DNA from: Lineus longissimus
Lineage: Eukaryota; Nemertea; Pilidiophora; Heteronemertea; Lineidae
Direction: 5' to 3'
DNA length: 64,000 bases
NCBI RefSeq assembly: GCF_910592395.1
Contig: NC_088310.1
Location: 10,053,501-10,117,500, forward strand
The notes below the pieces were generated by a model. The model was not told where the DNA came from. It was given only the letters and a program-made list of their open reading frames with translations, and did not search any database. The position numbers and the translations under genes were made by a program. Below are positions 268 through 57,900 of this stretch, one piece after another (the stretch's first letter is position 1; each line of letters starts with the position of its first letter).

Positions 268-3200
268 CTGGAAAGAAATAGGAACACGTATTTGTTTACT
301 GGTACCTCTATGGCTACATTCAGTTGCCAGCATTTCTTAAAGGGACTCTATAGACAGCAGTTAAGTAGGCAAGATGAAGTTACATGAAGTCACCAATAGG
401 GGTCTCTCACATCTCACAGTACATTGAAATGATTCACACTTGTACGAGGAATATACTTCCTGCTAAGTCTGACATTACCCAGGGCCTGTACTGTGCATAT
501 GAGTCACCCAAAGATGGCCAATTTAACCCCCTGCTCCTGCCTATAGTCCCCCTTTAACACTTTTAATGCAATATGACCTATGTCTTGGTTTTCTGTCCGA
601 AGATACCCCACTTCCAGCTGCTGATCTGTTCTCTCAAGACTTTGAAGTAAGAACTACAAAAACATCCTCAAGGGAAGATAGGTACTTTCTTTGGTTATAA
701 ATATCCATTGTAAAGCAATTCTGACAGTTTTAGGGGGTGGATGGGGTGATGGAAAAGGGGTAATTTTGGTTACTTTTCAACCAGAGAAGTTAAATATAGA
801 TGGGGATATACAACAAAGTAATCTTTTCTCTGTTGATTCATCAAGCTCTGGTTGGGGAAGATATTGCAAAAGAATGTTACGCAGCTATATGTATTTCTAA
901 TCGATTTTTTTCGTGGGTTCTAAAAAGGGGTTGAAACACTAGCACTGAAACAGTGAACGTGTCCAGTTGCCCCAATTATCAAACTAAACTATCAAGTAGA
1001 GTTATAGTTGGTTTCAGGTTCCTAACTTTTTTCATGGCTGGTTTTATAGCTGACCCTGTTGATGGATGTTTATGGTATTGATACCGAACTGGAGGTATTG
1101 GTTGTCTCGGTTAATCCCCATTTCGCCTACACCCATTTCGCCTACAAAATTTACCCGTTTCGCCTACTCACCATTTCGCCTACACCCATTTTGCCTACTC
1201 ACCATTTTGCCTACTCGCCATTTCGCCTACACCCATTTCGCCTATTCACCATTTCGCCTATTACCCATTTCGCCTATTACCCATCTTGCCTACATCATTT
1301 CAAATGTTTTATGAAAGTGACTTCAAATTCAAAAGACGTTTCAGCCTTCTAGTCTAATTTGAAATGTCTATTGGTGCCAAAATTTTGTAACACTTTTAGA
1401 AATATGCAGTTTATCCAACTAAATACCAACTAAATACTATCAGACGAACTGAGTAGGGTCATGAGTAGGGTCATGATTTGGCCGAAAACAGTGGAAATAT
1501 CATGGTCTCTCAAATTTGTCCAATTTGAAGAAAAAAAATTTGTGGACAACCACCAGTTTTAATAAAATTTCACCATTTACTCGCCTGACTGTCTGGAATG
1601 TCATATCCAAATTTCAGATTCACAACCCGAAGCATTATTTGATGCAAGGCGGTCAAACTGTGACAATTTAACTGCAAAAAGGCTTAAAATATCAATGGTG
1701 GTCTTGTCTCAAGAGGCTGGGTTGGAATGATAAAGTAGGGTAAAGTTTAACTGGGAAATATGCTATAATATGAAGGAAAAAAACCAAGCTCAACAATTCG
1801 TAAAATTGTTCAAATGTCCAGCGCACACCACTCTTTTCCTTTTTAGTAGGCGAAATGGTGAATAGGTGAAGTGGGTGTAGGCAAAATGGTGAATAGGCGA
1901 AATGGGTGTAGGCGAAATGGGTGTAGGCGAAATGGGGGTACACCGTTGTCTCACCAAAACCGCTGGTGTGGAGCTAAAATGTAGACCAAAACCGAGGCGT
2001 AGCTGAGGTTTTGGTGAATATTTCAGCTCCACTCGTTCGGTTTGGGTGAGACAATCAATACTGACAGTGAGGTATCAATTTCTATTCCAAAACATCTCAA
2101 ATTAAATAATGAATAATGTGGTTTTAAATGCTTTTGAACTGCTTCCACATTTTGTACCAACCCAAATGGTTTATGGTTGCCTAACCATAACCGCTGAATT
2201 CAAAACAAGGCTTCATTGGTGCATCGTGCATTCACACTGTAATCTGTGGTTCATTCTAAACCCAGTTGTTTTAGAATTTGCTACAACAGGAGCAAGTTCA
2301 TATGTTTTTTCCATAGACTTGCAGAGAATACATGTAGGATTCCGTTCAAATCTTACAGCATTTCCTTGTATTTGAGAGCCTCAGTCAGGTCCTGTTTGTG
2401 TCGTGTGGCCAGAAACATCAACGCTCTGATAATATCGGGCGTGTAGATAAATCCAAGTCCATCAAGTTCAGTTTTGATTTCGTCGGCTTTGGCAACATTC
2501 TGAAAAAAAATTGTGAAAGCAGGTTAACCCTTTCAGTCCCACATGTACTGAGATTTCCTCCAGTTGTCGGCTCTTCTGAGACTGTCTAGCAAGGGCCTAA
2601 ACACATGAGATATAAGTTAAAGGCCTTGGTTACTGAAAATGTCAAGATAAGATAGAATGTATGAGGGTTTGAAACTCCCAACAGATGTTGCCAGACTGCT
2701 GTATCAGCGAAAATCAGCAGAGAGTGTAACAATTTTGAAAAAGCTTCCTTAAAGTTATCTTATCTGTGTGCCTCCCTAATCAATCATATGGTTCCATCTC
2801 AGTTGATGCGTAACAATGGCTTAGCCTCAGACTTGATCTAGGTGTCAGACCAAGGACTACGAAACGTCATCTATACAAAAGTCACACAGTTTTGGTACAA
2901 AAAGAAAGTACAGTATAACCTCCCTTAGCAGACACCCTCTTTATTAAGGACACTAGTTTTGGTCCCAAATTGGGTGTTTCCATTCAATTTGACCTCTCTT
3001 ATCACGACAGCACTTGTCAGTCCCGAGGGTGTCATCAATGGAGAGGTTCTACTGTACCTTTCAACTTGGATTAATCAATCATGTTGGCTAAAACGTTTTT
3101 TTATCCTAACTGGGGCTCCTTTGTCAATCTTGGTTGGTCCAGGCAAACCAACTTGATATCTTTCCTGATGAATTTGATACTAAAACGGTAAGAACTCAAT

Positions 3201-21200: not shown

Positions 21201-24200
21201 GTGGATATTTCTTCTGAATTTATTTTTTGATGCTTTTTATTTTGGCAAATTTCAAACTTGAGTAAGTGGTGAAAAATTTATTTCAGCACTATTCATTTTC
21301 AGGTACAGGGTGTCGGCGAAATCAATGTTAACCAGTCAGCTAAAGTTTCCGGGTTTACTGATGGCTATCCTAGAAACAATAACAAACGAATATTTCCTAC
21401 CTCATTATTTTTAGTATTCCTGTGGCACTCTCTTCATCACTGAAAAAAATTGAAATTTTTCAAGGAGGTTTGTCGGCAGGAGGTACATGTACATATTTAA
21501 TTGGTAGTCTCCAGGTGAGGAAATGTTACAGAAAATTTATGTGCAAACATGGGAAAAAAATAAGATGGAGCAAATTAATGAATGCTATGGCGTAGCCTCG
21601 ATAACATGACAATTGTGATTGAAAAGTAGCCACTGACGTATTCAATCGGGCGGTTACAGGAAAATTCGTCCCCGGATAATTCGTCCCCGGAAAATTCGTC
21701 CCCGCAAATTCGTCCCCAGATAATTCGTCCCCAAGGAAAATTCGTCCCCGGAAAATTCGTCCCCGAGAATGATTCGTCCCCGAGGATAATTCGTCCCCGG
21801 AAAATTTGTCCCTGAGGATAATTCGTCCCTGGAAAGTTCGTCCCTGAGGATAATTCGTCCCCAGAATATTTTACAAAGTTGAAAGTTTCTGACTTTACTT
21901 TCTAAGACTCTTAAGTCTTGTCGAATGGACTGTAGTAATAACTACTACTTTCGATTTTTCTCATTCAGTGTAACACCTCTCTTTACTACCATACTAGCTA
22001 GTTACCTACCCCACTATTTTTATAGTAGGTAGAAGTAGGCAGGCGAAATATTTTATTGAAGGATTTAGAGCTTTTCTTTCATTCTGACCAGTAAAAATAC
22101 TTATTTGAAAAAAAAAAATTATTTCGCCTGCCTACCTTTACCTACTATGAAAAGAGTGGAGTAGGTAACTAGCTAGTAGGGTAGTAAAGAGAGATATAAT
22201 GAATGAGAAAAGTCGAAAGTAGTAAGTAGTAGTTATTACTAGAAAGTAATGTCAGAAACTTTCAACTTTTGTTTAATTTTCCGGGGACGAATTATCTTCG
22301 AGGACGAATTTCCCAGGGATGAATTATCCTAGTGGACATATTTTCCGGGGACGAAATTTTCTTTGGGGACGAATTTTCCAGAAACGAATTATCCTCGGGG
22401 ACGAATTCTCCAGGGACAAATTATCCTCGGGGACGAATTTTCCGGGACGAATTTTCCTAGGGGACAAATTTTCCGGGGACGAGTTTTCCGGGGACGAGTT
22501 TTTCGGGGACGAGTTTTCCGGGGACGAATTTTCCTAATCGTTATCAGATATCATAATGTCATGGTTATGTCGAACATTGCGGCAACAAAAATTGCTGATT
22601 GGCATATGGCTATCAGCGCCGTTAATAGCCATTAGCAAATATGCCGATTTGAGGACTCACCCAGCTCTCATATGTCCCACGATTAATGAATTGAAGACTG
22701 TCTCATTGATTGGCAGATTGGAAGTTTTCATGTGCTCCAGAACCCGACTGAAAAAAAAACGTAACGAATAGAGAAGTAGTTTCGAGTTACCAACTGGCTA
22801 GAATAAAAACCAAGGCGGTAAAAGAAACGAAATGCATGGAGAGGTTAATGGAAGTTCTACTTAATTTCCTCTGAAAAACCAATAAGGGAGGAAAAAATTT
22901 AATCAAATGCACCATGAAAAAAACTTGTGATCGGTAGCAAAATGGGAGGTTCCAAGCTTTATAGGGTGGTCTGGTATCTCTGACAGTTGGAAAGGTTTTC
23001 TCTCCACTAAAACAACTGTTTTAACCCTTTATTTCACTTTTTAAGTTGAACACACTCGAGGTTTACATGCTTAAATGCATTACTGACCACCTGACCAGGA
23101 TACCTCTCTAAAGGCCTGCCTACAAGGCATGGCGCAGGTACATTACATTACCTTGCTCCAGCTATATCTCCAGATTGGCAATAACCAGCCACCAGACGCT
23201 GATACGTCAGCTGCAAGATGAAAAATGCAACTATGAGAAAGTAATGATCCAACATGTGCAAAATAGTGTCATTGATCGCCATGAAATTATAATTTAAATT
23301 TCTGTTGTGAAATGTGGGGCCTTACCTACTGTTATCATATTCTAAAACGAAGTTCGTTTGGGACTCAAAATTGATCACACCATGTTTGGCTTTTACGTCA
23401 AACATTTTGAGTCGCAAATATGTGACCCACTCTAGCAAGACCAGTCGGATGTCGCACATAAGATGAGCCTAGATGACACCAGGAGATAATAGAAGAAATT
23501 GATGTCGTCAGATTTCACAAAAGGCAGACAATAGTGAAATGAACAAACAGTCAGTCTCAACCTGCCAAGCTCAGAGCGACATGCGACTGGTTTTGCTGGA
23601 ACGGGTTAAATATAGTAGTCAGCAAATTGTAATATGTCGCCCGTCATAGCAAAACCAGTCTTATGTCGCTCTGAGCTTGGCAGGTTGAGACGGACTGTTG
23701 TTGTCATTTCTCTGTTGTCTGCCTTTTGTGAAATATGAGCACATCAATTTCTTCCATTATCTCCTGGTGTCATTTAGGCTCATCTTCTGTGCGACATGCG
23801 ACTGGTTTTGTTGTGGCGGGTCATCTATAGGGAGCTACTGGTATTACCGTACATGTATTTCAAAACAGTGTTTTCTTTAACATTTGGGGTTGCTAATCTT
23901 CGTAGTCAGTTGTTGAACAATATAGACAATGAGACCTGTTCAAGAAGCACAATGCTACAACTTTCTGCTTACCCTCATGGGTGCAATACCCTCCAACTCC
24001 ATTTTCCCCAGGAACTCGGAGGGCGAGAACTTGTACTCATTCTGGAGATAGATCCCAAGTAAGGCATTGTAGTGCTTCACACCATACTTCACACCTGCAA
24101 GATGAAATGGAATTCGAAGCACTTGACACCAAGAAAGCTCATTTTAATGCTATGGTCTTGTCCAAGATGATGGTCTTGTCCAAAATGTTGAGAAATCTTG

Positions 24201-27564: not shown

Positions 27565-27780
27565 CACGTTCACTGCCAAGCCACGATGATACTCGAAAGC
27601 TGGTTCCTGCTTCATTGCCAAGGCACGAGTTGTCGCCACCATTGCTAAGCCTTGAGTATATTCGGAGCAGTCTATGCATTATTCAATGTATTTCAAATGA
27701 CTGGCAAGGTCGAATACGCTTCCGTTCTGTAAAACATTATGGGTCAGGATATATGTTTATTATTGTGTTTATTAGGTTAC

Positions 27781-28010
27781 AGGAAAATTCGTCCCCGGAA
27801 AATTCGTCCCCAGAAAACTCGTCCCCGCAAATTCGTCCCCGGAAAATTCGTCCCCGAGGAAAATTCGTCCCCGGAAAATTCGTCCCCGAGGATAATTCGT
27901 CCCCTAGGAAAATTCGTCCCCAGATAATTCGTCCCTGGAAAATTCGTCCCCAAGGATAATTCGTCCCCTAGGAAAATTCGTCCCCGAGGATAATTCGTCC
28001 CCAGAAAATT
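27781..28010. repeat. Left outer iterated arm of the foldback MULE
   Basis: About 15 units of 11-16 bp centred on ATTCGTCCCC, with spacers GGAAA, GAGGATA or CTAGGAAA. The extreme end AGGAAAATTCGTCCCCGG is mirrored exactly at 31430-31447. Confidence 0.9.
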
Positions 28011-28486
28011 TTTCAAAGTTGAAAGTTTCTGACTTTACTTTCTAAGACTCTTAAGTCTTGTGGAATGGACTGTAGTAATAACTACTACTTTCGACTTTTC
28101 TCATTCAGTGTAACATCTCTCTTTACTACCCTACTAGCTAGTTGCCTACCCCACTATTTTCATAGTAAGTAGAGGTAGGCATGCGAAATATTTTATTTGA
28201 TCGCCATGTTGAAAATGCTATTGCGTTTCTTTTCTTTTGCCATCTTATCAACTGAACAGTGACTTCGGTGAATGTTTTAATTTTTTTGAAACATCTAGGA
28301 AAACCTACTCTTCCGTGAATTGGACCTTCTTTCCACAATTCCGCACCACGATTCAGTAAATGTCGGACTTGTTATTCTCCCAAAAACCAAACTATGAAGG
28401 TTGAGTTATCCAAGCATCTTGTACACAATTTTACAGTAATTGCCAATATTAAAACAATGCTTGAAAAGTTGAGAAGAGCAGGTCTG

Positions 28487-28852
28487 AAGTTTAGAAGAAG
28501 ATCTTTTCTTAATTGCACCCAGTAAAAACTGGGGATTAAGATAAAACACTTCCATGATGCAATTAACAAGAATTAGTCTGTGCACTCTAAATATCCAACT
28601 GTCCCTTAATTGCCATTCAAATCATTGAATTATCACCTTAATAAAGGAGATTGTTTATTAGTGTCCTTTATTCAACTGCTCATTTAATGTTTTGGAGCTA
28701 TTTATTGGCAATTAAAGGACAATTGGATAATTTTAGACCGACTCCTTTGTTCCCAGTCCACAAGAAGCCATTTTCTTATTAATTGCATCATGGAAGTGTT
28801 ATCTGCATATCCAGTTTTAACTGGGTGCAATTAAGTAGAGGTCTTCTAAAAT
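28487..28852. repeat. Foldback insertion inside the transposon
   Basis: Left TTAATTGCACCCAGT...ACTGG is mirrored by CCAGTTTTAACTGGGTGCAA at right; inner blocks 'aacacttccatgatgcaatt' and 'ctttattcaa' are mirrored too. It lies between the left arm and the transposase ORF, so it is either a nested miniature element or part of the promoter region. Confidence 0.65.
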
Positions 28853-28923
28853 TCCCACAAAAAGTCCAGACGTAACAGAGACAAGGTTCTTCTCAACCTT
28901 TGGTTTCTTGGCTCTAAGTCTAA

Positions 28924-30405
28924 TTGCTTGCTCAAAGTGTCAGGTGGTATTATAACAACCCTCAGTGTGGGAAGTTCCTCATTCTCTTCAAAGTGACCGA
29001 TGCTGATACAACTGGAATCATGGCTGAATTTATAACATCCGAGCGAGGAAAAGATAAGCTGGTGTACGACGGTTACGTATACACAAGACAGAAACTGCTG
29101 GCAGGAAACCGCACTTCGTGGATTTGCGAACAGAGATCCAAATGTAAAGCCAGAGTAACGACAGATGGTCTACGTGTAGTAAAGGCCATGAATCAGCATA
29201 CACATGCTCCAAACCGACCTGCTGTCCAAGCGCAGAGGGTGCAGCAGCAGATGAAAGCACGTGTCCAAACCACACAAGAGACAATCCAGCAGGTCTTGAC
29301 AGAGAATGTTGGTAACCTTGGTGAAGGGGCTGCTGTGCTGCTACCGAATATTGCCAATATGAGGAGAGCTCTGCGAATGCAACGACAAACGGCGGCGCAA
29401 CCTGAACCCCAGCCACAAAATGCCATGAACATGGAGATTCCTGAACGGTATACTCGAACTCTTCGAGGCGAATTGTTCCTGCAGTTCGATAGTGGAGTCG
29501 GCGATCCAAATCGCATTCTGATATTTTGTACGCAAAGGAATCTGGAACTTTTGGCGTATTGTGAACATTGGTTTGCTGATGGCACTTTTAAAACAGTTCC
29601 GCTCATCTTCTTCCAGTTGTGCACCATCCATGTCTTGCTGAATGACTCTGTGACTGCATGTATTTATGCGTTGCTACCAAACAAAACTCAGGAGACCTAC
29701 GCTCGGCTTTTCACCACCATAAGACAATTAATTCCCAATGCAAATCCAGAAACATTTTTGATGGACATGGAAAGGGCAGCTTCAAATGCCGCTTCAGAAA
29801 TCTTTCCTAATGTGGATATCAAATACTGCTTTTACCACTTGTCCCAAGCAGTATGGAGGAAGATTCAGGAACAAGGTCTTGCCGTGGATTACCGTGAGGA
29901 TGACGAGTTCGCGCTTAATCTGAGAATGCTGACTGCACTGGCTTTTGTCCCAGTCGATGATGTCATTGAAAGTTATGAAGCCTTGCAACCACATATTCCA
30001 GATGCTGCTGAACCAGTTGTACGATATTTCGAAACAACTTACATTGGAGAGAGAAGACGCCAGGGACGTAGAAATCCAATGTATCATATCTCCAAGTGGA
30101 ACGTGTATGATAGAACTGTCGAAAACCTTCCGAGAACCAACAATGCCATCGAGGGCTGGCATCGCGGTTTCCAGTCGAATGTCGCAGCCTTCCACCCAAA
30201 CATCTGGAAATTCATTGATGTGATTCGCCGTGAACAAAGTCTTAATGAGTTGAAGATTACACAAATTCTTGGTGGACATCAGCCTCCCCAACAACGTCGT
30301 GGGTATCGTGACTGTCAAAGGAGAATTGCTGCTATCGTGCAGAATTATGACAATCGTGATATTGTGGGATACCTGAGAGCAATTGCACACAATCTTCAGA
30401 TGTGA
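28924..30405 (+). CDS. MULE-type transposase with FLYWCH zinc finger
   Basis: This intact 493-residue ORF has no intron. Residues 33-95 form a FLYWCH-type zinc finger (Y53, W66, C68, C74, H92, H94), the usual DNA-binding module of animal MULE transposases. Residues 100-165 are Gln-rich with coiled-coil character. The catalytic core follows: WFADGTF (D219), FLMDMERAA (D281), the YCFYHLSQ C2H pair (C302, H305) and TNNAIEGWH (E410). The DDE triad and the Mutator-specific CxxH are thus all present. Translation could begin at M1 or at M33 (position 29020), just before the finger; M33 is my preference. The AATAAA at 30942 is a likely polyadenylation signal. The intact frame implies recent activity or recent arrival. 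Cellular FLYWCH/MULE-derived genes exist, but the flanking matched inverted arms say transposon. Confidence 0.92.
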   Translation: MLAQSVRWYYNNPQCGKFLILFKVTDADTTGIMAEFITSERGKDKLVYDGYVYTRQKLLAGNRTSWICEQRSKCKARVTTDGLRVVKAMNQHTHAPNRPAVQAQRVQQQMKARVQTTQETIQQVLTENVGNLGEGAAVLLPNIANMRRALRMQRQTAAQPEPQPQNAMNMEIPERYTRTLRGELFLQFDSGVGDPNRILIFCTQRNLELLAYCEHWFADGTFKTVPLIFFQLCTIHVLLNDSVTACIYALLPNKTQETYARLFTTIRQLIPNANPETFLMDMERAASNAASEIFPNVDIKYCFYHLSQAVWRKIQEQGLAVDYREDDEFALNLRMLTALAFVPVDDVIESYEALQPHIPDAAEPVVRYFETTYIGERRRQGRRNPMYHISKWNVYDRTVENLPRTNNAIEGWHRGFQSNVAAFHPNIWKFIDVIRREQSLNELKITQILGGHQPPQQRRGYRDCQRRIAAIVQNYDNRDIVGYLRAIAHNLQM

Positions 30406-30430
30406 ACAGATTTGTGAACTCTTAAGGCCT

Positions 30431-30563
30431 CCATACAGTGCATGACAAAAGTCGAAATATAGTACATTCTACAAGAATTGACCTAGCTATATAGCTAAAT
30501 ATCGAAATGTCTTAGTAAATGTCAAACAGACTATATTTCAAAATTTGTCATGCAGTGTATGAA
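30431..30563. repeat. Hairpin behind the transposase stop
   Basis: CATACAGTGCATGACAAA and ..AAATATAGT are mirrored by ACTATATTT.. and TTTGTCATGCAGTGTATG. The arms are about 30 bp with a loop of about 70 bp, in the 3' untranslated part of the transposon. Confidence 0.7.
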
Positions 30564-30941
30564 TAATGAAGGACTTTATAAAGTTGGTGACTGTTGTGGA
30601 ATACCTGAGAGCATTTGAATACATGGGTGTCTCAAGTTTACTCTTGTCTTGAATTAGTATGAACTGTTTGAGACAGTGAATCAAGAATTTTTAAAATTTC
30701 CTTTCAATTGTACATATTTATCAGGACAAAGTTGCTCAATTAGCATTAACCAATCATTCGAGTGTTATGTTAAAATGTTGGCATTATCTCTTTATTAATG
30801 TAAAATACCAAATTGTGCAACCCAGGGCCATATACATTTGTACGGCAGATTTGCATTTATCCAGAAAATTTACTTAAAAGACAATGAAAGATACTGACAT
30901 ACTTGTAAACAAAATTTTTGGTAAAATTATCTTTTCGTATC

Positions 30942-30947
30942 AATAAA
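30942..30947 (+). terminator. Polyadenylation signal of the transposase gene
   Basis: This is a canonical AATAAA 537 bp after the stop codon and before the right arm. Confidence 0.55.
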
Positions 30948-31029
30948 CTTTCTATTGTACATGTAATTGTTGTCAATTTGCTTTTCTTTTAATTCCCTCT
31001 ATTTTCTTGACAACAAGAGAATAAGGCCA

Positions 31030-31447
31030 CCTTTAGAGCTTTTCTCTCATTCTGACCAGTAAAAATACTGATTTAAAAATAATAAAATATTACCCCTGCC
31101 TACCTCTACCTACTAGTACTATGAAAATAGTGGAGTAGGTTACTAGCTAGTGGCTTAGTAAAGAGAGATATAACACTGAATACTAGAAAATAATGTCAGA
31201 AACTTTCAACTTTTGTTAAATTTTCTGGGTACGAATTATCCTCGGGGACGAGTTTTCCAGGGACGAATTTTCCTCGGGGACGAATTTTCCAGGGACAAAT
31301 ATTCCGGGGACGAATTTTCCTCAGGGACGAATTATCCGGGGACGAATTTTCCTCGGGGACGAATTTTCCAGGGACGAATTTTCCTAGGGGACGAGTTTTC
31401 CGGGGACGAGTTTTCCGGGGACGAATTTTCCGGGGACGAATTTTCCT
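31030..31447. repeat. Right arm of the foldback MULE
   Basis: The inner domain (31030-31215) contains 'cctacctctacctacta' and 'cagaaactttcaact', mirrored at 28021-28175. The outer array of GGGGACGAATTTTCC units (31216-31447) mirrors the left array. Confidence 0.88.
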
Positions 31448-31959
31448 AGAGCCGTTTATTATGCACTAGGTGAGCTCTATGCCCACAGCCAACACTCGTG
31501 GTGGGGTAATGGAGCAAAACACAAAACTTGGCAAACGTGGCACACGGCGGTGCGCTCAAAAAAAATGGGGCGGCTATGAACGTGTTAAAGAGGATTTTGC
31601 ACACCAACGATTTAGCCTAATTTTTACATTTCCTCAGGTGGTGAAAATGAACAACCTCATTTCCTATTTATAACTCAGGTGCAGATCAATTAGCTGGATA
31701 AGGCCTGCTGAACATGTGGACAATAAGTCTGCAGAATAGGGTTCATTCAGTAACCTGCATATGACTTGATGATGCTTTGATATCTACTGAGGTGCGGGAA
31801 GGGCATTGTACTTGTCACAGGAAATACGCTTCAAAATCGGCCACCGATCTAGTATTTTGCATACTTTTGCAGCCATTAGCAAGTGGTCAATTTCAGAGAT
31901 TTATGAGTGAACTGAAAGTTCTAAGAGGAAACCCATGCATAGACTCGAGGAAAATCAAA

Positions 31960-41083: not shown

Positions 41084-43940
41084 TCTGTCTTGTGAGGAAT
41101 ACAAGCATGGCTTTCAGCCTAAATCAAAAGGAATGTGACCTGACCGTTCAGGGGGCTGTGATCCTCGGCAGCGGAGGGGGTGGACCATTACCATTTGCAA
41201 GGTATATTGTCAGTTTTGAGACGAAATCGACTCTGTCCGCTCCAGTTGATGGCAGAAATGAATCCTATGTACCGCCAGAGGCCTGAATGAGACTTTTAAA
41301 GCAAAACTTAGCATAATCGTCTCCCTAAGAGGCACATCTAAAGACACTGCTACTGATTACTAGTTCAATGGACCCCCGCTGACACCTCTCTTCAAGCTCT
41401 CACCTAGCTTTAGACCCAAAAAGGTTGTTTCCATTCAATTTGACCTCTCAAATGAGGACACATCTCAATTCGGAGCAGCACTTGTCAGTCCCAATCGGGG
41501 TGTCACTAATAGGGTGGATCAACAGTACTTACTTACTTAACTGCAACATGGTTCGGGCCATCAAATGTGCAAGAGTCAGCCTGAGGCTTCTCTTGGCTAT
41601 AAGAGTATAAATCAGACACATGCACAAAATAAGTTGGGATTGAACTCTTTATAGGTCCGAATTTTCCACACTTGCAGACCATTGATATATTTGAAACTTG
41701 GTTCAGGTGATCAGTATTGAGTGTAGAGAGTCTTGTATGCGGCATTTGATGTCATTAGTAAAAGTAAATTTTTCAGACCAAGGTACCCTCGGGGAATTTG
41801 TAGCCCGTTTTTTCGAGGTATAGTCCAGCTGCTAAGTTCCGAAAAAAGCAAGAATTGTGCATTTTAATGGGGAAAGCATGAAATTTGGCAGAGTGGTAGA
41901 ACAGCCCCTAGGGGTCATTTATCGATTAAGACCCTAATTTTTTACGCCCCCTGGCGGTCGCCATCTTGAAATCCAATATGGCCGCCATTTTTGGCCCGTT
42001 TTCCTGCAATATCTCGGAATCTATTGCCATTCAGTGGTTGGGTTGATACACGACCCATAGCTGAAACTTCAGTTTTTAATGGCGCACGACAAGACCGTCA
42101 TTCAATTCAGAATATCACAAGCTGTTGTCTGACACAAGGTGTAATGTACAACAGAGGTGATAGATAAAACTTTGTGTTTTTACACCAGTTTAAAATCAGT
42201 CTGATTTGCGACGATATTGTTTAGATTGTTGGTAAAGTGATCGCATCGAACACCACTTAATGTGTTCAATCATAAATATCGTTTGATACCAGCAAACTCT
42301 TGGCGTCAACCTAGATTGGAAAAATACTGAAAACTTTTACCAATAAAGATCATAAACCTGTGAAAAAATGTTCTCAAACATAAAAAACCATGCAATATTA
42401 AATTTTAGTCAGGGGTATTTGTAGCCCCTGACCACGAGTCTTATATTGTCTCTCAGAGACATTGTTTTAGATTAAGTGCACTAAATTGCAGGCTGTAAAA
42501 TTGGAAGGGGTGCCACTACAAGATGCAGGCCGGTTTTAGTGAATCTGTCTTGAAATCTCTTGCGTAACCAAAATTATAGCTGATAAAGGGGCTACAATTA
42601 CCCCAGTTTACCTTACACAAATTTGAAATCATTTCAGGAAAATAATCGCGGAGATAACCAGCCCTGCTGAAGTGAAACAACTTGATAGTGTCCATGATGA
42701 CGACTGGTTGACTATGATTGCCTTGGTTGGGCAACCCTCAAAGGTTCACGACGTTCTTCCAGGCAGGCACGTTGAGGCCTTTGATGTACCAGACGGACCA
42801 GTCCGAAACGATGCGCGGATGCCGAAATTCGCGGTGAACAAAGATGCGCCTTTGAGTTTCTTCGTCAATGGCCCTTTGATCCCAAAAAGTTCTGTTGATG
42901 TAGTCGACAGTTCTGATTTTGATAGTGTGGACGGCTCAACAGCGTCTGATGGCGTTGTGGTGAATCCAAACGTAGCGGCCAGGAACGCACTGAGATTTTT
43001 ACAAGCACAGTGTCGTCTGCGAGCGAAGGATCCAGACGATTACCCACGTTTTCAGTCATTTCAGAAGTTGACGCATCTTCTGACTGGTGAGTTGGGTGCC
43101 GTCAACATCGCGGTTAGTTTGTATCTATCGTCGGCTATGAATATTCCTGTGGCGGATTGTGATGGCGCTGGTCGCTCTGTCCCGTTAATTAGCCAAATCA
43201 CCTACGCCGATCGCTTCAATGTTTCCCCGACTGTCATTGTGTCGCCCCTGGATGATAAAGCTTTTGAGAGCATCGCGTCCGTCACGCTGGACTTTCCGGC
43301 AGGGACAGAAGGTATGGTACAGCTAATAGCCAAGTCATTGCTTTCGAGTGAGGAGGGTCCATTTGCCCACGGCTACATCGGCTACGGTACGTATGTCGTC
43401 AGCGGCGCCGAGGTAAGGGGTGTCCCAGTTGAAAACAGCTTATCTATGGCTTTCGAGATAGGAAAGGTGCTGAACGAAAGCAAAGGTCGAAAACGTGCTG
43501 ACGATATATGCGCAGTGATGCAGAAATACAAGAGAGACTGCGCAGTTGTCTTCCACGGCAATATTTCTGACAAGTTACTTCACGATGATTTAACCGTTCA
43601 CGATATTGGTTATGTAACAGTTAGAGATGATGATAGCAGTGAGATGCAACTCTGGTACAAGAACGAAGTCATGCTTGCGGGGCCTAAGGGGCAACCACCG
43701 AAGTACATGGCCCCCGACTCAATCTGCATTGTGCCAGCAGAGGGCGAGCCATTCGATGTGTCCACCATCACTCAACGTCAGAAAGAAGGGGTTGAAATTT
43801 ACGTTATTGTTATCGCCGCAGACGAGAAACTAAAGAACAAGAAAATAGTTGAAAGTTTTGAGAAAATATACGAACTCTTTGAAGATGGTGACCAAGACGT
43901 GTACAGGGGCCGCTATGTTCCTTGGTCAGCCTCGAGATAG
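41084..43940 (+). CDS. DUF917 / S-methyl-thiohydantoin desulfurase-like protein, two coding exons
   Basis: The spliced product is 465 residues. Exon 1 (coding 41107-41201) starts at an ATG in good context and contains GAVILGSGGGGPLPFA, the glycine-rich N-terminal signature of the family (G21-G26). Exon 2 (42638-43940) joins in phase 2 to give an uninterrupted domain. It contains GELGAVNIAVSLYLSSAMNI and then PVADCDGAGRSVPL (about residues 205-214), matching the bacterial 'E.GG.N...P...A...LP.vDaDgmGRa.Pe' motif. Known members act on hydantoin-type rings or sit beside hydantoinase/oxoprolinase genes in bacteria, or fused to them in fungi; the substrate here is unknown. It is longer than bacterial members (about 360), with an Asp/Ser-rich insertion at about residues 115-140. 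An acceptor (tttacag) at 41083 suggests a non-coding first exon upstream. Confidence 0.88.
41107..41201 (+). CDS. DUF917 gene, coding exon 1
   Basis: This has 31 codons plus two bases; it ends ..PLPFA plus AG at the donor gtatat. The frame is open further upstream, but the acceptor at 41083 and the ATG context favour this start. Confidence 0.83.
41202..42637 (+). other. Intron of the DUF917 gene, with two repeats
   Basis: This 1.4-kb GT-AG intron holds a decayed pogo-like element (about 41358-41530) and a TIR element (41791-42604). Confidence 0.8.
41791..42604. repeat. 814-bp element with GGGG..TTGTAGCCC inverted ends
   Basis: Left GGGGAATTTGTAGCCC and right GGGCTACAATTACCCC are 14/16 inverted. 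The same motif recurs internally at 42414. It has no coding capacity and fills most of the DUF917 intron. Confidence 0.6.
42638..43940 (+). CDS. DUF917 gene, exon 2 (most of the protein)
   Basis: The acceptor is atttcag at 42637. The first base completes the split codon AG|G, then KIIAEITSPAEV leads into the long ORF, ending with TAG at 43938-43940. A start at GTG 42672 would lose the glycine signature and is not needed. Confidence 0.9.
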
Positions 43941-50531: not shown

Positions 50532-51581
50532 AATGAAATGGCCAGGGCCATTGTGCTCACCTCATGTGGAGGAAAGATGGATAAAGAGCATGGTATTGTG
50601 TCATGTAGTGTTAGGTTTGATGTAGGTCCAAGCAATTACAATTTCCCCAAAATGGCCAATTTACAGTACATTCGACCTCTGTGACCTTGAAAAGTAGGTC
50701 AAATCAAAGAAGACCCGGGTGACACATTGAGTGGTTGTTAGAATTAGATGTACCTATGATATAAAATTGGTGCCAATCGGGCAAGTCATTACTAGGAATA
50801 ATGGCATTTTGAAGAATTTAGGATTTGGCCCCCTCCCTGGAGGCCAAACGGCACATCAGATCGCACCAAACTTCGGTACCTGAGATCACCTGACCAAGGG
50901 GTACATGTGTACTTAATTTGTGATCAATAGTCATTGCAGTTAAGAAACGTGCCAAAGTTACGGCCTGACAGCGAATTTATGCCATTTGACCTCTGTGACC
51001 TTGACAAGAAGGTCAAATTAAAAACCTGTGTGACATATACTGTATGGTGGTTAGATGTACCCATGATATCAAATTGGTGGCAATCGGGCAAGAAGTTAAG
51101 GAATAATCACATTTTTAAGGTTTTTGGATTTTGCTCCCTGGTGGTCAAGTGGTGAATCATATTGGACCAAACTTCGGTCCCTGAGATCACCTGACTAAGG
51201 GGTAAATGTGTACCAAATTTGGTATCAATAGTCATTGCAGTTTAGAAACGTGCCATCGTTACATCCTAACGGCCAATTTACACCATTTGACCTCTGTGAC
51301 CTTGAAAAGGAGGTCAAATCAAAAACCCGGAGGATATATGATGCACCTTTGCTAGAAGTACCTACCATATTTTTTTCAAAATTTCCCGACTACTATTAAG
51401 GGAGATATTGCATATTTTCACTTTTAACGTTTGGCCCCCTGGTGGCCAAACCATGAAACGAATCGGACCGAAACTTGGTCTCCAAGGTGTCATTACATAA
51501 GGGTACATGTGTACCAAGTTTCAACTCAATAGCTCTAACAGTTACGAAACGTGCCCTGCTAACGGACGACGGACGACGACG

Positions 51582-54900: not shown

Positions 54901-57900
54901 AAAGTGCTTTTTCATTTCAGGCAAATATCAACCTAACGCTTGCAATCATATTGCATCTAAATGTGATCTTCAATTTCATGTTTAGAATGTTTCTTTAGTT
55001 CGTTTAGTTTGGCTTGTTTCATTTGGCTCGTTTCAACGTTTACATAATACTGGTGTAACATCCGGGTGAAACGTTCACCAAACCCAGTGTTCACCTCATA
55101 TACTGACATTACATTAACTTGAAAGGGATACATAAAGCTGTTAATCCGAAACCTCTTTCAAAGCATTTCTATATTAAGTGGCATAATCAAAACACCGAAG
55201 TTCTCCATTGTGAATATGGAGCAGTGGTTGGAAAGGTTTCGGTGTCAGAGAGACGAATAAAAAAATGGTAAAGGGTTTTTTACGGTTTGGGTCTTGGACT
55301 AACAAAAATTACTGAACACGTATAGAGAATGTCAGATGAATAAAAAGAAGGGCACACGTATGGAGAAGGGGTTGGTACGGTCTGGTTCTCTGATTTAAAA
55401 AATAAGTGCACGCAAATACAAAAAAGTAGGGCGTCTGTGTGGAGAAGAGGTTGGTACGGTCTGGTTCTCTGATTCAAAAAATAAGTGCACGCAAATACAA
55501 AAAGTAGGGCGTCTGTGTGGAGAAGAGGTTGGTACGGTCTGGTTCTCTGATTTAAAAAATAAGTGCACGCAAATGCAAAAAAGTAGGGCGTCTGTGTGGA
55601 GAAGAGGTTGGTACGGTCTGGGTCTCGGATTGATATAAAGAATTGCACGCGTACAGAAAAGGGTTCGGTACGGTTTGAGTGTCGGATTAATAAAAGGAAG
55701 GGCACCCGTAAGGAGAAGGGGTTTGTACGGTTTAAATGTCGGATTGATGAAAAAGGGAACCTGCATGGAGAAGGGATTTGTACGGTTTAAATGTAGGATT
55801 AATAAAAAAGGAACCTGGGAGGAGGGATTTGTACGGTTTAAATGTCGGATTAACAAAAGAGGGAACCTGCATGGAGAAGGGGTTTGTACGGTTTAGATGT
55901 CGGATTAACAAGAAAGGGAACCTGCATGGAGAAGGGGTTTGTATGGTTTAAATGTCGGATTAATAAAAAAGGGAACCTGGTAGGAGGGATTTGTACTTTT
56001 TAAATGTCGGATTTACAAGAAAGGGAACCTGCATGGAGAAGGGGTTTGTACGGTTTAAATGTCGGATTGATGAAAAAGGGAACCTGCATGGAGAAGGGAT
56101 TTGTACGGTTTAAATGTCTGATTGATAAAAAAGGGAACCTGCATGGAGAAGGGGTTTGTACGGTTTAAATGTCGGATTAACAAAAAAAGGAACCTGCATG
56201 GAGAAGGGGTTTGTACGGTTTAAATGTTGGATTAACAAAAAAGGAAACCTGCATGGAGAAGGGGTTTGTATGGTTTAAATGTCGGATTAACAGAAAAGGG
56301 AACCTGAATGGAGAAGGGGTTGGTACGGATTTGGGTGTCAGATGTCTATTTTTTCAGATGATTAACAGGAAGCGCATTGTTTGTAGGTAAAGGATAGGTT
56401 ATTAGGAGGTCGTGGGTTCGATTATCGGAAGGGTCTCCGCTATTTCGCGTTTGAGTCCTTGAGCAAGGCACTTTACCCTACTTGCTTCTCTCCACACATG
56501 CAGGAGTAAATGGGTACCGAGTTCTGGCAGAGTTGGCACACTATAAATGATGGTCCTGAGCGCTGTGTAGTTGCAGCTTGGATCCCTGTGATACTCCCAG
56601 ATGGTAGAGCTTGAACCACGAATGTACAGGCCATTAGCTAGAGGTAATAATGTGAAGTACTTTGAGCGAGTGAGACCAGTTGGCTTTAGAGCTAGCAAAA
56701 TGTGTTTTTCGTGTGTTTTTTCGCATGAATCACTGGCGAGGCTAACATGCTAAGGGTAATAGACGATGCTGCCATCGTAGCCAGGCACCTGAAGTCTAGA
56801 TACAAGATCGCTCCGACTTTCTAAGTATCCTGGTGGTCTAATGGTAAAAACACTGGCCACACACGCCAGCGTCCCGGGCCCGAAACCCGCGGTGGTCAAT
56901 TTTATTCTTCTTATTTTTTCCGTGATTCTTATCATTTCGGAGTGAATATATCTATATTCATAAGTGGATCTCACTTTCTGTAATAGACAAAATCTTTCAA
57001 AATATGGCTGTTCTGATCGCGCAGATTTGTTACTTTATACGTATTCTTACATTAAATTTGTGGATTGAATGCGACCACGTTTAAAGTGCATAAAGACCCA
57101 TAAAATCAGATAAATCGTACTTTAAAGATGAAGAAAACGACAAAGCCAGGGCGATATGACACGGGCGCACCGCCTGTTGTTAGTTTAACCAACTAATGTA
57201 ATATAGATTCCGAGCCTTGACCAACGCCAATATATACGCCAAGTGGTTACTACCAACACCGAAACGGACAACTTCAGTACATACACAATAAATTATAACG
57301 GCAACTACGTGTACATAGTCCCACCATGTTCACAGATTCTGTTTAAATCCCATCGGAATGTCACATCATACTAGAAAATGCCAAAAGGACTCTATATGGA
57401 ACAGTGTTCTAAACTTTCGGTTGAATTTTCAGGGAGAAGTTGTTTCGGTTAAAAGTATCTAATCAGCATATTTGTAAATAGTATATATTGTTCTTTTGAA
57501 GCGGCAAATAACGGCCAAATTATAATCGATATGAAATGCAAATGTTTTTCTCTGTTGGTTATTCCTTACCAAATCCGGCACGCCCCACCACAAATATTAA
57601 GCAGCTTAATCGAACACTCCATGTGTCCATGCCCCAAACTTAATTTGTAGTAATTGCTATTTATCATTATTATTATTACTGTCTGAGCGTTCGATAAATG
57701 ATAAAACAGCCAAAGGTCATTGAGATCACCGGTTAAACGTTGGATAAGAGATGTGCTTCTACAAGTACACAAGTCAAATAGCTAGCGTATGTCATTTGGC
57801 GCGTGTGACCTTGAAAGATTGTTCATACTGGTATTATGTGTACGAAGTTTCAAGTTCATAGCTTACGTGGTTAAGTTACAGGCCACTGTTTGTGAATTCC

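Follow-up and report, generated by a model that had tools for sequence, protein, structure and literature searches.

Analysis of the window (the whole stretch of DNA that was analysed, 64,000 nucleotides from the bootlace worm Lineus longissimus, matched at 100% over 408 aa) showed an element of 3,679 bp at 27775..31453 on the forward strand, designated family F1. It is probably (at a rough probability of 0.7) an autonomous FLYWCH-type Mutator-like (Phantom-like) foldback DNA transposon, with a transposase that is likely to move it by cut and paste and to recognise its ends by binding the repeated units of the arms with the FLYWCH finger. The boundaries were set from the target site duplication (TSD), the limits of the arms and the ends, which were identical to the base in three other copies. 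The TSD was an 8-bp sequence, GTTTATTA, found on the left (27767..27774) and on the right (31454..31461), and in the chance control, 20,000 pairs of 22-bp stretches drawn at random gave 86 with a match of 8 or more. The outermost six bases formed terminal caps outside the inverted arms, GGTTAC on the left (27775..27780, forward strand) and GGCTCT on the right (31448..31453, reverse strand; AGAGCC on the forward strand), and these were not mutual inverted copies. The preliminary description had placed the element at 27781..31447 and had suggested a search for a duplication of 8-11 bp; the element was real and the duplication was found, while the true ends (27775 and 31453) lay six bases further out. 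A Tc1-like insert was nested inside the element, a point against the autonomous reading.

The transposase was encoded by a single-exon, uninterrupted ORF of 461 aa (29020..30405, forward strand), and a homologue, P0001, was equally long and began similarly. Pfam gave FLYWCH (1.6e-16) and MULE (PF10551, 1.1e-14), both passing the curated cut-offs, as the only matches besides a sub-threshold DDE_Tnp_ISL3. The FLYWCH zinc finger (29029..29205, forward strand; residues 4-62, with C36, C42, H60 and H62) lay at the N-terminus ahead of the MULE domain match (29569..29847, forward strand; residues 184-276), as in Phantom transposases. The catalytic residues spanned 29578..30153 on the forward strand (D187, D249 and E378, with C270/H273 and W360 in between), and neither these nor the four finger residues varied among the 20 aligned sequences, F1 included. 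The MULE transposase domain with its DDE triad, and CxxH and W residues spaced like those essential in Muta1 (D249-H273, 24; W360-E378, 18), are features of Mutator-like elements. These results bore out the preliminary description, which had reported an intact FLYWCH/MULE transposase with all DDE and CxxH residues between the arms and had proposed the search against MULE profiles. A PDB sequence search matched the finger to 2rpr (FLYWCH1, 1.6e-8) and gave only weak, unrelated matches outside the finger. The predicted fold (pLDDT 89.9) had the ISCth4 transposase as its best match, with the P element and Hermes lower in the list. Membership of Galileo or the P superfamily was rejected, with neither a THAP domain nor a P-type transposase in the Pfam result, as was membership of Rehavkus, with no PHD match in the same result; a PHD finger in the transposase is a Rehavkus feature in Table 1 of PMC6446971.

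The arms were composite inverted arrays of short tandem repeats, the architecture of type 2 Foldback elements. The left iterated arm (about 27781..28010, forward strand) contained 14 units with gaps of 14-17 bp, and the right (about 31219..31447, reverse strand) contained 14 units with gaps of 15-17 bp, with a mean unit pitch of about 15.8 bp. The window element together with the shorter copy of its family gave 53 unit gaps, distributed as 15 bp (28), 17 bp (21), 14 bp (3) and 18 bp (1); the inverted tandem arrays described earlier were present, and the unit was not the strict 15-mer that had been claimed (gaps 14-18 bp). Inward of the arrays, a plain inverted repeat continued in the non-iterated parts on the left (28011..28178, forward strand) and right (31106..31218, reverse strand), with 83% identity between 28103-28178 and 31106-31181 and 87% over 120 aligned bases of the inner inverted repeat. 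Two physical properties of the arms were rejected. Uniform helical phasing (a mean pitch of about 15.75 bp, giving 1.5 turns of DNA) showed no clear gain in coherence over shuffled gap order, with fractions of 0.09-0.79 across 8 arms (lowest 0.09). Strong self-folding of the arm strand was also rejected; the left arm as ssDNA was less stable than its own shuffles (z 2.49), 198 of 200 of which were at least as stable.

Genome-wide, two further full-length copies (on C7 and C8) were 99.8% identical and carried perfect 9-bp TSDs (AATCAGGAC and GTTTTAAAC, respectively), and a 1.8-kb deletion copy had the TSD ACAAAAAGG. The three full-length copies lie at C3:10.08 Mb (the window element), C7:16.60 Mb and C8:5.83 Mb. 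TSD lengths were within the 8-10 bp of Mutator-like elements (8 bp at the window element; 9 bp at L003, L004 and L009). The F1 left end occurred 180 times in the genome, and the reversed-pattern control gave 0 occurrences. Fifty of the 180 left ends were read, and 38 of them could be paired with a right end and a TSD of 8 or 9 bp without mismatch. In 36 the matched TSD lay within the stretch read (32 of 9 bp and 4 of 8 bp), and the remaining two, the window element and L009, were established from longer stretches; 36 of the 38 copies were too short for the gene. A second, gene-less F1 copy in the window (21652..22536, forward strand) was an internal deletion without the region from about 28197 to 31032 of the full element, and neither its right cap nor a TSD of 6 bp or more was found. 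The view that arms and transposase belong together was upheld by the three full-length copies that have both and by the 36 of 50 left ends with matching right end and perfect TSD, and the other full copies that had been sought in the assembly were the two above. Arms without the gene, named beforehand as evidence to the contrary, do exist, though trivially, as internally deleted derivatives. Since the copies are 99.8% identical, their sequences suggest that F1 was recently active, and the gene-less copies were presumably mobilised in trans. No relatives were found in viral contigs by protein or by DNA pattern.

At least 10 FLYWCH-MULE families were found in the Lineus genome, and L001 lay on a shrimp-like contig; all 11 matched the FLYWCH and transposase profiles and all had arrays, on both sides and inverted in 9 of 11 and seen on one side only in F6 and F7 (two copies each; finger identity between the two families 66%). 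The unit sequences differed between families. Ten of the 11 had a pitch of about 15-17 bp, and F8, at 20-22 bp, ruled out a universal pitch of 15-17 bp. The window also contained a gene-less foldback element of family F5 (1109..1944, forward strand), with the TSD GTTGTCTC at 1101-1108 and 1945-1952 and nowhere else in the window, and the F5 transposase in L037 was flanked by arms with the unit of this element.

Across the 11 families, units were more alike where FLYWCH-finger identity was higher, with r 0.54 and a p of 0.0001 from permutations that ignore phylogeny. The correlation persisted given whole-protein identity, a measure that contains the finger (partial r 0.33, p 0.010), and the reverse partial, whole protein given FLYWCH, was -0.03 (p 0.57). 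With the finger separated from the rest, the partial for FLYWCH given residues 151-461 was 0.26, a value that carries no permutation p. Along the protein the FLYWCH window ranked 1 of 40, with a narrow lead (partial 0.31 versus 0.26 for the next window). The unit strings for these 11 families were hand-chosen from TRF output; the first exon of F5, which at first showed no FLYWCH, was located separately. F4b (L034), L070, L071 and L072 were left out as second copies of F4, F7, F6 and F5, respectively, as were F2-like loci beyond the C9 copy (L016, L019-L021, L026-L028, L031 and others). The correlation was first suggested by seven families and then tested on 11, and the subset "new + F1, F7" was picked after the first seven had been seen. 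Because unit similarity follows finger identity beyond whole-protein identity, the result indirectly supports the finger as reader of the arms, which the preliminary description had suggested, and the co-divergence could also reflect simple shared descent of arms and gene.

The strongest competing explanation, although unlikely, is that the catalytic core or other parts of the transposase read the arms, that replication slippage and unequal exchange, acting on long inverted repeats, produced most of the iteration as a by-product, and that only the caps and the first unit matter. Unit number varied widely (left 2-18, right 0-22), an array was seen on one side only in F6 and F7, and the right array was absent in 2 of the 36 short TSD-bearing copies. 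L040 had a perfect 9-bp TSD with just GGCTCTAGGAAAATTC of the right arm, and L043 was only 85 bp long. Unless these copies lost the right array once inserted, an element may be able to do without it. However, 34 of the 36 retained at least 6 right-arm units, the DNA matches between F3 and F4 with coding sequence masked were all arm against arm (25 of 25), and unit divergence tracked the finger better, if narrowly, than the rest of the protein.

It is considerably less probable that the arms serve another job, such as promoter or enhancer of the transposase gene or binding of host proteins. Promoters in MULE TIRs are described in PMC6446971 and the arrays flank the gene on both sides, but arrays in both arms were kept in 34 of 36 copies too short for the gene, and among families that share a host the unit changes with the finger of the family's own transposase. 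A chance or artefactual arrangement, in which unrelated repeats happen to flank a host gene that encodes FLYWCH and MULE domains, is hardly credible; no support for it was found, and it is already refuted by the recurrence of arms, gene and ends at three sites, each with its own TSD.

Under the preferred reading of a FLYWCH-type Mutator-like foldback transposon, the encoded transposase would cut and paste the element, and its finger would bind the repeated arm units and so recognise the ends. A first layer would be the cap at the cut, often starting GGT and partly common to families, which the catalytic part may recognise. The second would be the inner array, with a unit particular to each family and mostly recurring every 15-17 bp or so, on which transposase might load multivalently; repetition would thus lend specificity to a single finger whose contact with DNA is weak and short, and each family's finger is predicted to prefer its own unit. 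We tentatively propose, at rather less than even odds, that FLYWCH foldback transposons use such a two-layer end code, with a partly shared cap and an array (units mostly 15-17 bp apart) serving as a family-specific address read by the finger, and that the finger-array pairs of the at least 10 families coexisting in one worm genome are a readable FLYWCH DNA-recognition code. If finger and unit do evolve as lock and key, at least 10 families could therefore coexist in one genome.

The preliminary description had held that the element would newly tie iterated-arm foldback elements to Mutator; foldback arms joined to a Mutator-like transposase were already in print for Tm1 (2011, PMC3169594) and Muta1 (2017, PMC5225508), and the Lineus element therefore does not newly link the two groups. 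Muta1 of Aedes aegypti, termed a type 2 Foldback element, shares with F1 a FLYWCH and MULE transposase, a TSD of 8-9 bp, iterated arms (9 copies of a 12-bp repeat with 3-4 bp spacers, a pitch of 15-16), short derivatives of variable repeat number and equal D-to-H (24) and W-to-E (18) spacings (D283/H307 and W401/E419; PMC5225508). It differs in host phylum, in the first D-to-D spacing (69 versus 62 in F1), in a protein of 504 aa encoded by two exons (461 aa from a single exon in F1) and in a 10-bp imperfect palindromic end motif, and it transposes in yeast (PMC5225508), whereas activity of F1 is predicted from sequence. Tm1 of Meloidogyne resembles F1 in its Phantom-like transposase with FLYWCH and MULE domains, a composite TIR built from repeats of 13-15 bp, mostly 9-bp TSD and many short gene-less copies (PMC3169594). 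Its arms, too, are bounded by caps that differ between the two ends (on the left CGGTTAA in Tm1, GGTTAC in F1). Its units differ (CGATTCAGTATCCGC), Tm1-A has 7 exons versus one in F1 and lacks the last FLYWCH His present in F1, and Tm1 was judged inactive by its own authors (PMC3169594), whereas F1 has 99.8% identical copies. The Phantom clade (group 20 in PMC6446971) likewise combines a FLYWCH finger (some members), a MULE domain, a TSD of 8-10 bp and, in some, long TIRs; nemerteans are not among the hosts given for that group in the passage concerned, and F1 is likened to the clade by its features. Galileo of Drosophila has foldback-like arms in which the transposase DNA-binding domain binds several sites (PMC3688188); it has a P-superfamily transposase with a THAP domain, unlike F1, which would work like Galileo and is not a member.

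What the analysis adds is a set of 11 array-bearing FLYWCH-MULE families in which divergence of the arm unit tends to go along with that of the finger. In 2013 it was noted as untested whether the tandem repeats of Phantom and Foldback elements act as binding sites for the transposase (PMC3688188, section 13). One genome now offers at least 10 natural pairings of a finger with an array, the units differing between them, as well as three full-length copies that are nearly identical, and the question is therefore open to simple swap experiments. The answer would also inform which DNA FLYWCH fingers prefer; the domain is named in animal transcription factors as well.

Pfam analysis of the window element F1 showed that its 461-aa transposase ORF (29020-30405) matched FLYWCH (1.6e-16) and MULE (1.1e-14). 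The ORF was located between two inverted tandem arrays, in each of which unit scanning found 14 units, and the intact FLYWCH/MULE transposase between iterated arms that the preliminary description had proposed was thus borne out. The arms it had delimited also stood, while the outer ends were moved six bases outwards on each side, to GGTTAC (from 27775) on the left and AGAGCC (to 31453) on the right. The element was flanked by the target duplication GTTTATTA; at least 8 shared bases were obtained in 86 of 20,000 trials on random pairs of 22-bp stretches. Directly 3' of the transposase ORF, a nested short element was observed at 30434-30559 with ends CAGTGCATGACAAA and TTTGTCATGCAGTG and TA on each side, which we take to be features of Tc1/mariner-type MITEs. 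The 5' part of F1 contained an imperfect palindrome of 350 bp (28496-28847, 67% self-complementary), probably another nested element.

The 391-Mb assembly contained at least 96 transposase matches, among which three F1 copies were full-length and essentially identical: the window element (the window being C3:10053501-10117500), C7:16602906 and C8:5831893. The latter two showed 99.8% identity to the window element (6 mismatches in 3,657 bases and 7 in 3,683) and carried the 9-bp duplications AATCAGGAC and GTTTTAAAC, and the C7 copy had one unit fewer at the left. In a short copy of 1,779 bp (L009, C3:16355571), flanked on each side by ACAAAAAGG, a deletion with its junction at a CTGACT microhomology had removed the 5' portion of the gene. 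The caps, the terminal bases outside the arms, were identical in all four copies. The left end GGTTACAGGAAAATTCGTCCCC, with up to two mismatches, occurred 180 times genome-wide against 0 for the reversed-pattern control. Fifty of these left ends (30 loci and 20 further stretches, every one with the exact left end) were read, and a right end with matching duplication was found for 36 (9 bp long in 32 cases, 8 bp in four and 10 bp in none). The other 14 had no matching right end inside the stretch; two of these, the window element and L009, have theirs. The other copies and target duplications that the preliminary description had proposed to look for were thus found; F1 is a genuine autonomous element, and it was likely mobile recently.

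Thirty-four of the 36 duplication-bearing short copies measured 0.5-1.0 kb, and the remaining two only 399 and 85 bp; the 1.4-kb gene therefore fits in none of them. Counted within half of each element, their arms had 2-18 units on the left (median 13) and 0-22 on the right (median 16). L040 (540 bp) and L043 (85 bp) lacked the right array despite a perfect duplication; these two may have moved without it or lost it afterwards. L043 consists of little beyond the two ends, with the perfect 9-bp duplication ACTGAACAT. Across 26 duplication-bearing elements, the 648 gaps between units averaged 15.85 and were distributed as 15 (341), 17 (266), 14 (23), 18 (14), 13 (2) and 16 (2). Within the core, G, T, C, C and C were conserved at 0.98-0.99 among 616 units drawn from 23 elements of this set. 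The last core base reached 0.82 and the fourth linker base 0.61, and the linkers between cores measured 4 to 8 bases. The core values are too high and blind to indels within the core, because units were chosen by core likeness without gaps.

Alignment of the F1 transposase with 19 of the 661 homologues found showed that the FLYWCH ligands C36, C42, H60 and H62 and the catalytic residues were invariant in all 20 sequences. The AlphaFold2 model (pLDDT 89.9, pTM 0.70) had as its best PDB match the transposase of ISCth4 (E 6.7e-6), presumably an IS256 family member, with the P element at rank 7, Hermes at rank 11 and retroviral integrase cores between; none of their query TM-scores rose above about 0.3.

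Among 30 transposase-match loci taken with 1.5-kb flanks, several of which overlap, a foldback-type unit array was present in 20, a short 17-bp array with no apparent relation to the others in two (L012 and L023), and no array in eight, all of them partial transposase matches. Arrays were also present in all ten stretches of divergent families (L034-L037, L068-L073), some with fewer than 3 copies. The units of the other Lineus families, hand-picked from TRF consensus and sequence and read inward, were GGACATTTGCCCCCC (F2), AAAGGCACTGGAAAA (F3), AGGTACAGGTAAAAA (F4), CACCCATTTCGCCTA (F5), GTCAAATCGTCCCCAG (F6), TGTCCAAAACGTCCCC (F7), a 21-mer (F8), GAGTCAAAACGGCCCT (F9) and GTCCCGGGTCCTATGC (F10). 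An eleventh family was represented by L001 (1-3169 of QNXQ01000082.1). Although assigned to an Aquifex MAG, this contig holds a FLYWCH-MULE element of animal type, with arms AGAAAATTCCACCCA (94 nt, 100% complementary) and a transposase 35% identical to that of F1 whose closest named relatives are from shrimps; it is likely mis-binned animal DNA. An upstream frame in L001 resembled a non-LTR retrotransposon by eye. Inverted arrays stood on both sides in nine of the 11 families (F1-F5, F8-F10 and L001), and on one side in two copies each of F6 (left; L035, L071) and F7 (right; L036, L070), where the second arm may be missing, decayed or further away. The pitch was about 15-17 bp with single irregular gaps in ten families and 20-22 bp in F8. 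In L068 (1130-1557, 3665-3840), a second array of the F8 unit, oppositely oriented, lay outside the left arm, an arrangement resembling two abutting elements, and a stray array GAGTCAAAACGGCCCC, almost the F9 unit, adjoined an F3 element on C20 (L032, 867-922).

Perfect duplications were found for F5 (CGATCTTTT), F4 (CTATCATTG) and F2 on C15 (GTTTTTATGG), and none at F2 on C9 and C6, F3 on C19 and a second F4 copy, whose left end is outside the stretch. The gene-less element at 1109-1944 in the window probably has its autonomous partner in F5. After-the-fact comparison of the caps at ten duplication-supported ends (left and right of F1, the window F5-type element, F5, F4 and F2) showed a GGT start in seven, including F5 right only if its duplication is taken as 8 bp. 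The other starts were GGC (F1 right), GGA or GAA (F4 right, with an 8- or 9-bp duplication) and GAT (F2 left, if 9 bp). When F1 and the F5-type element were aligned from the cuts, 10 of 17 bases were common on the left (reached in 267 of 200,000 shuffles) and 7 of 17 on the right (16,591 of 200,000). TTC began at base 14 in all six ends examined, four of them duplication-defined.

Unit similarity between the 11 families, scored at the best rotation on the same strand, correlated with FLYWCH identity (r 0.54, p 0.0001) as well as with identity over the whole protein, finger included (r 0.45, p 0.0012). The partial correlation was 0.33 (p 0.010) for FLYWCH given protein and -0.03 (p 0.57) for the reverse. 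The ten Lineus families alone gave 0.55 for FLYWCH, 0.45 for protein, a partial FLYWCH value of 0.36 (p 0.012) and a reverse of -0.06, and a six-family subset, mostly of new families, gave a simple FLYWCH correlation of 0.42 (p 0.075) and a partial of 0.55 (p 0.026). The FLYWCH window ranked top of 40 overlapping 60-residue windows (r 0.49, partial 0.31), followed by residues 261-320 (r 0.47, partial 0.26). After masking of coding sequence, F3 and F4 gave 25 alignments, every one of them arm to arm, although one overran the arm limit by 1 base. For F6 and F7, four of six alignments ran arm to arm, and the two close to the gene may be coding. Common descent of arms and gene could also have produced this co-divergence. 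Moderate evidence from these sequence comparisons nevertheless suggests that the FLYWCH finger reads the arm unit, as the preliminary description had proposed.

Elsewhere in the window, the 408-aa protein at 42714-43940 matched Lineus longissimus LOC135484728 at 100% identity from end to end. Each of the six homologues listed was a nemertean protein or a metagenome protein carrying the name DUF917 family, and this ribbon-worm gene may be bacterial in origin. Large tandem arrays with periods of 79, 55/162 and 301 bp were seen at 55361-56328 and 50654-51449, the former inside a stretch of raised G skew (54-60 kb).

No account of nemertean Mutator repeats was found in the literature searched, which left most subscription journals outside it. 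Galileo arms are shown to have several sites for the transposase domain and the Foldback and Phantom repeats are called untested (PMC3688188), while short subterminal repeats of 9-15 bp are given for 10 of 12 Aedes long-TIR families (PMC5225508). A FLYWCH-MULE transposase has been described inside foldback arms both in Tm1, where the repeats are 13-15 bp long (PMC3169594), and in Muta1, where 12-bp repeats alternate with spacers of 3-4 bp (PMC5225508), so the view that F1 newly ties iterated-arm foldback elements to Mutator does not hold. The FLYWCH-MULE transposase in foldback arms is already known, and F1 adds one more such element.
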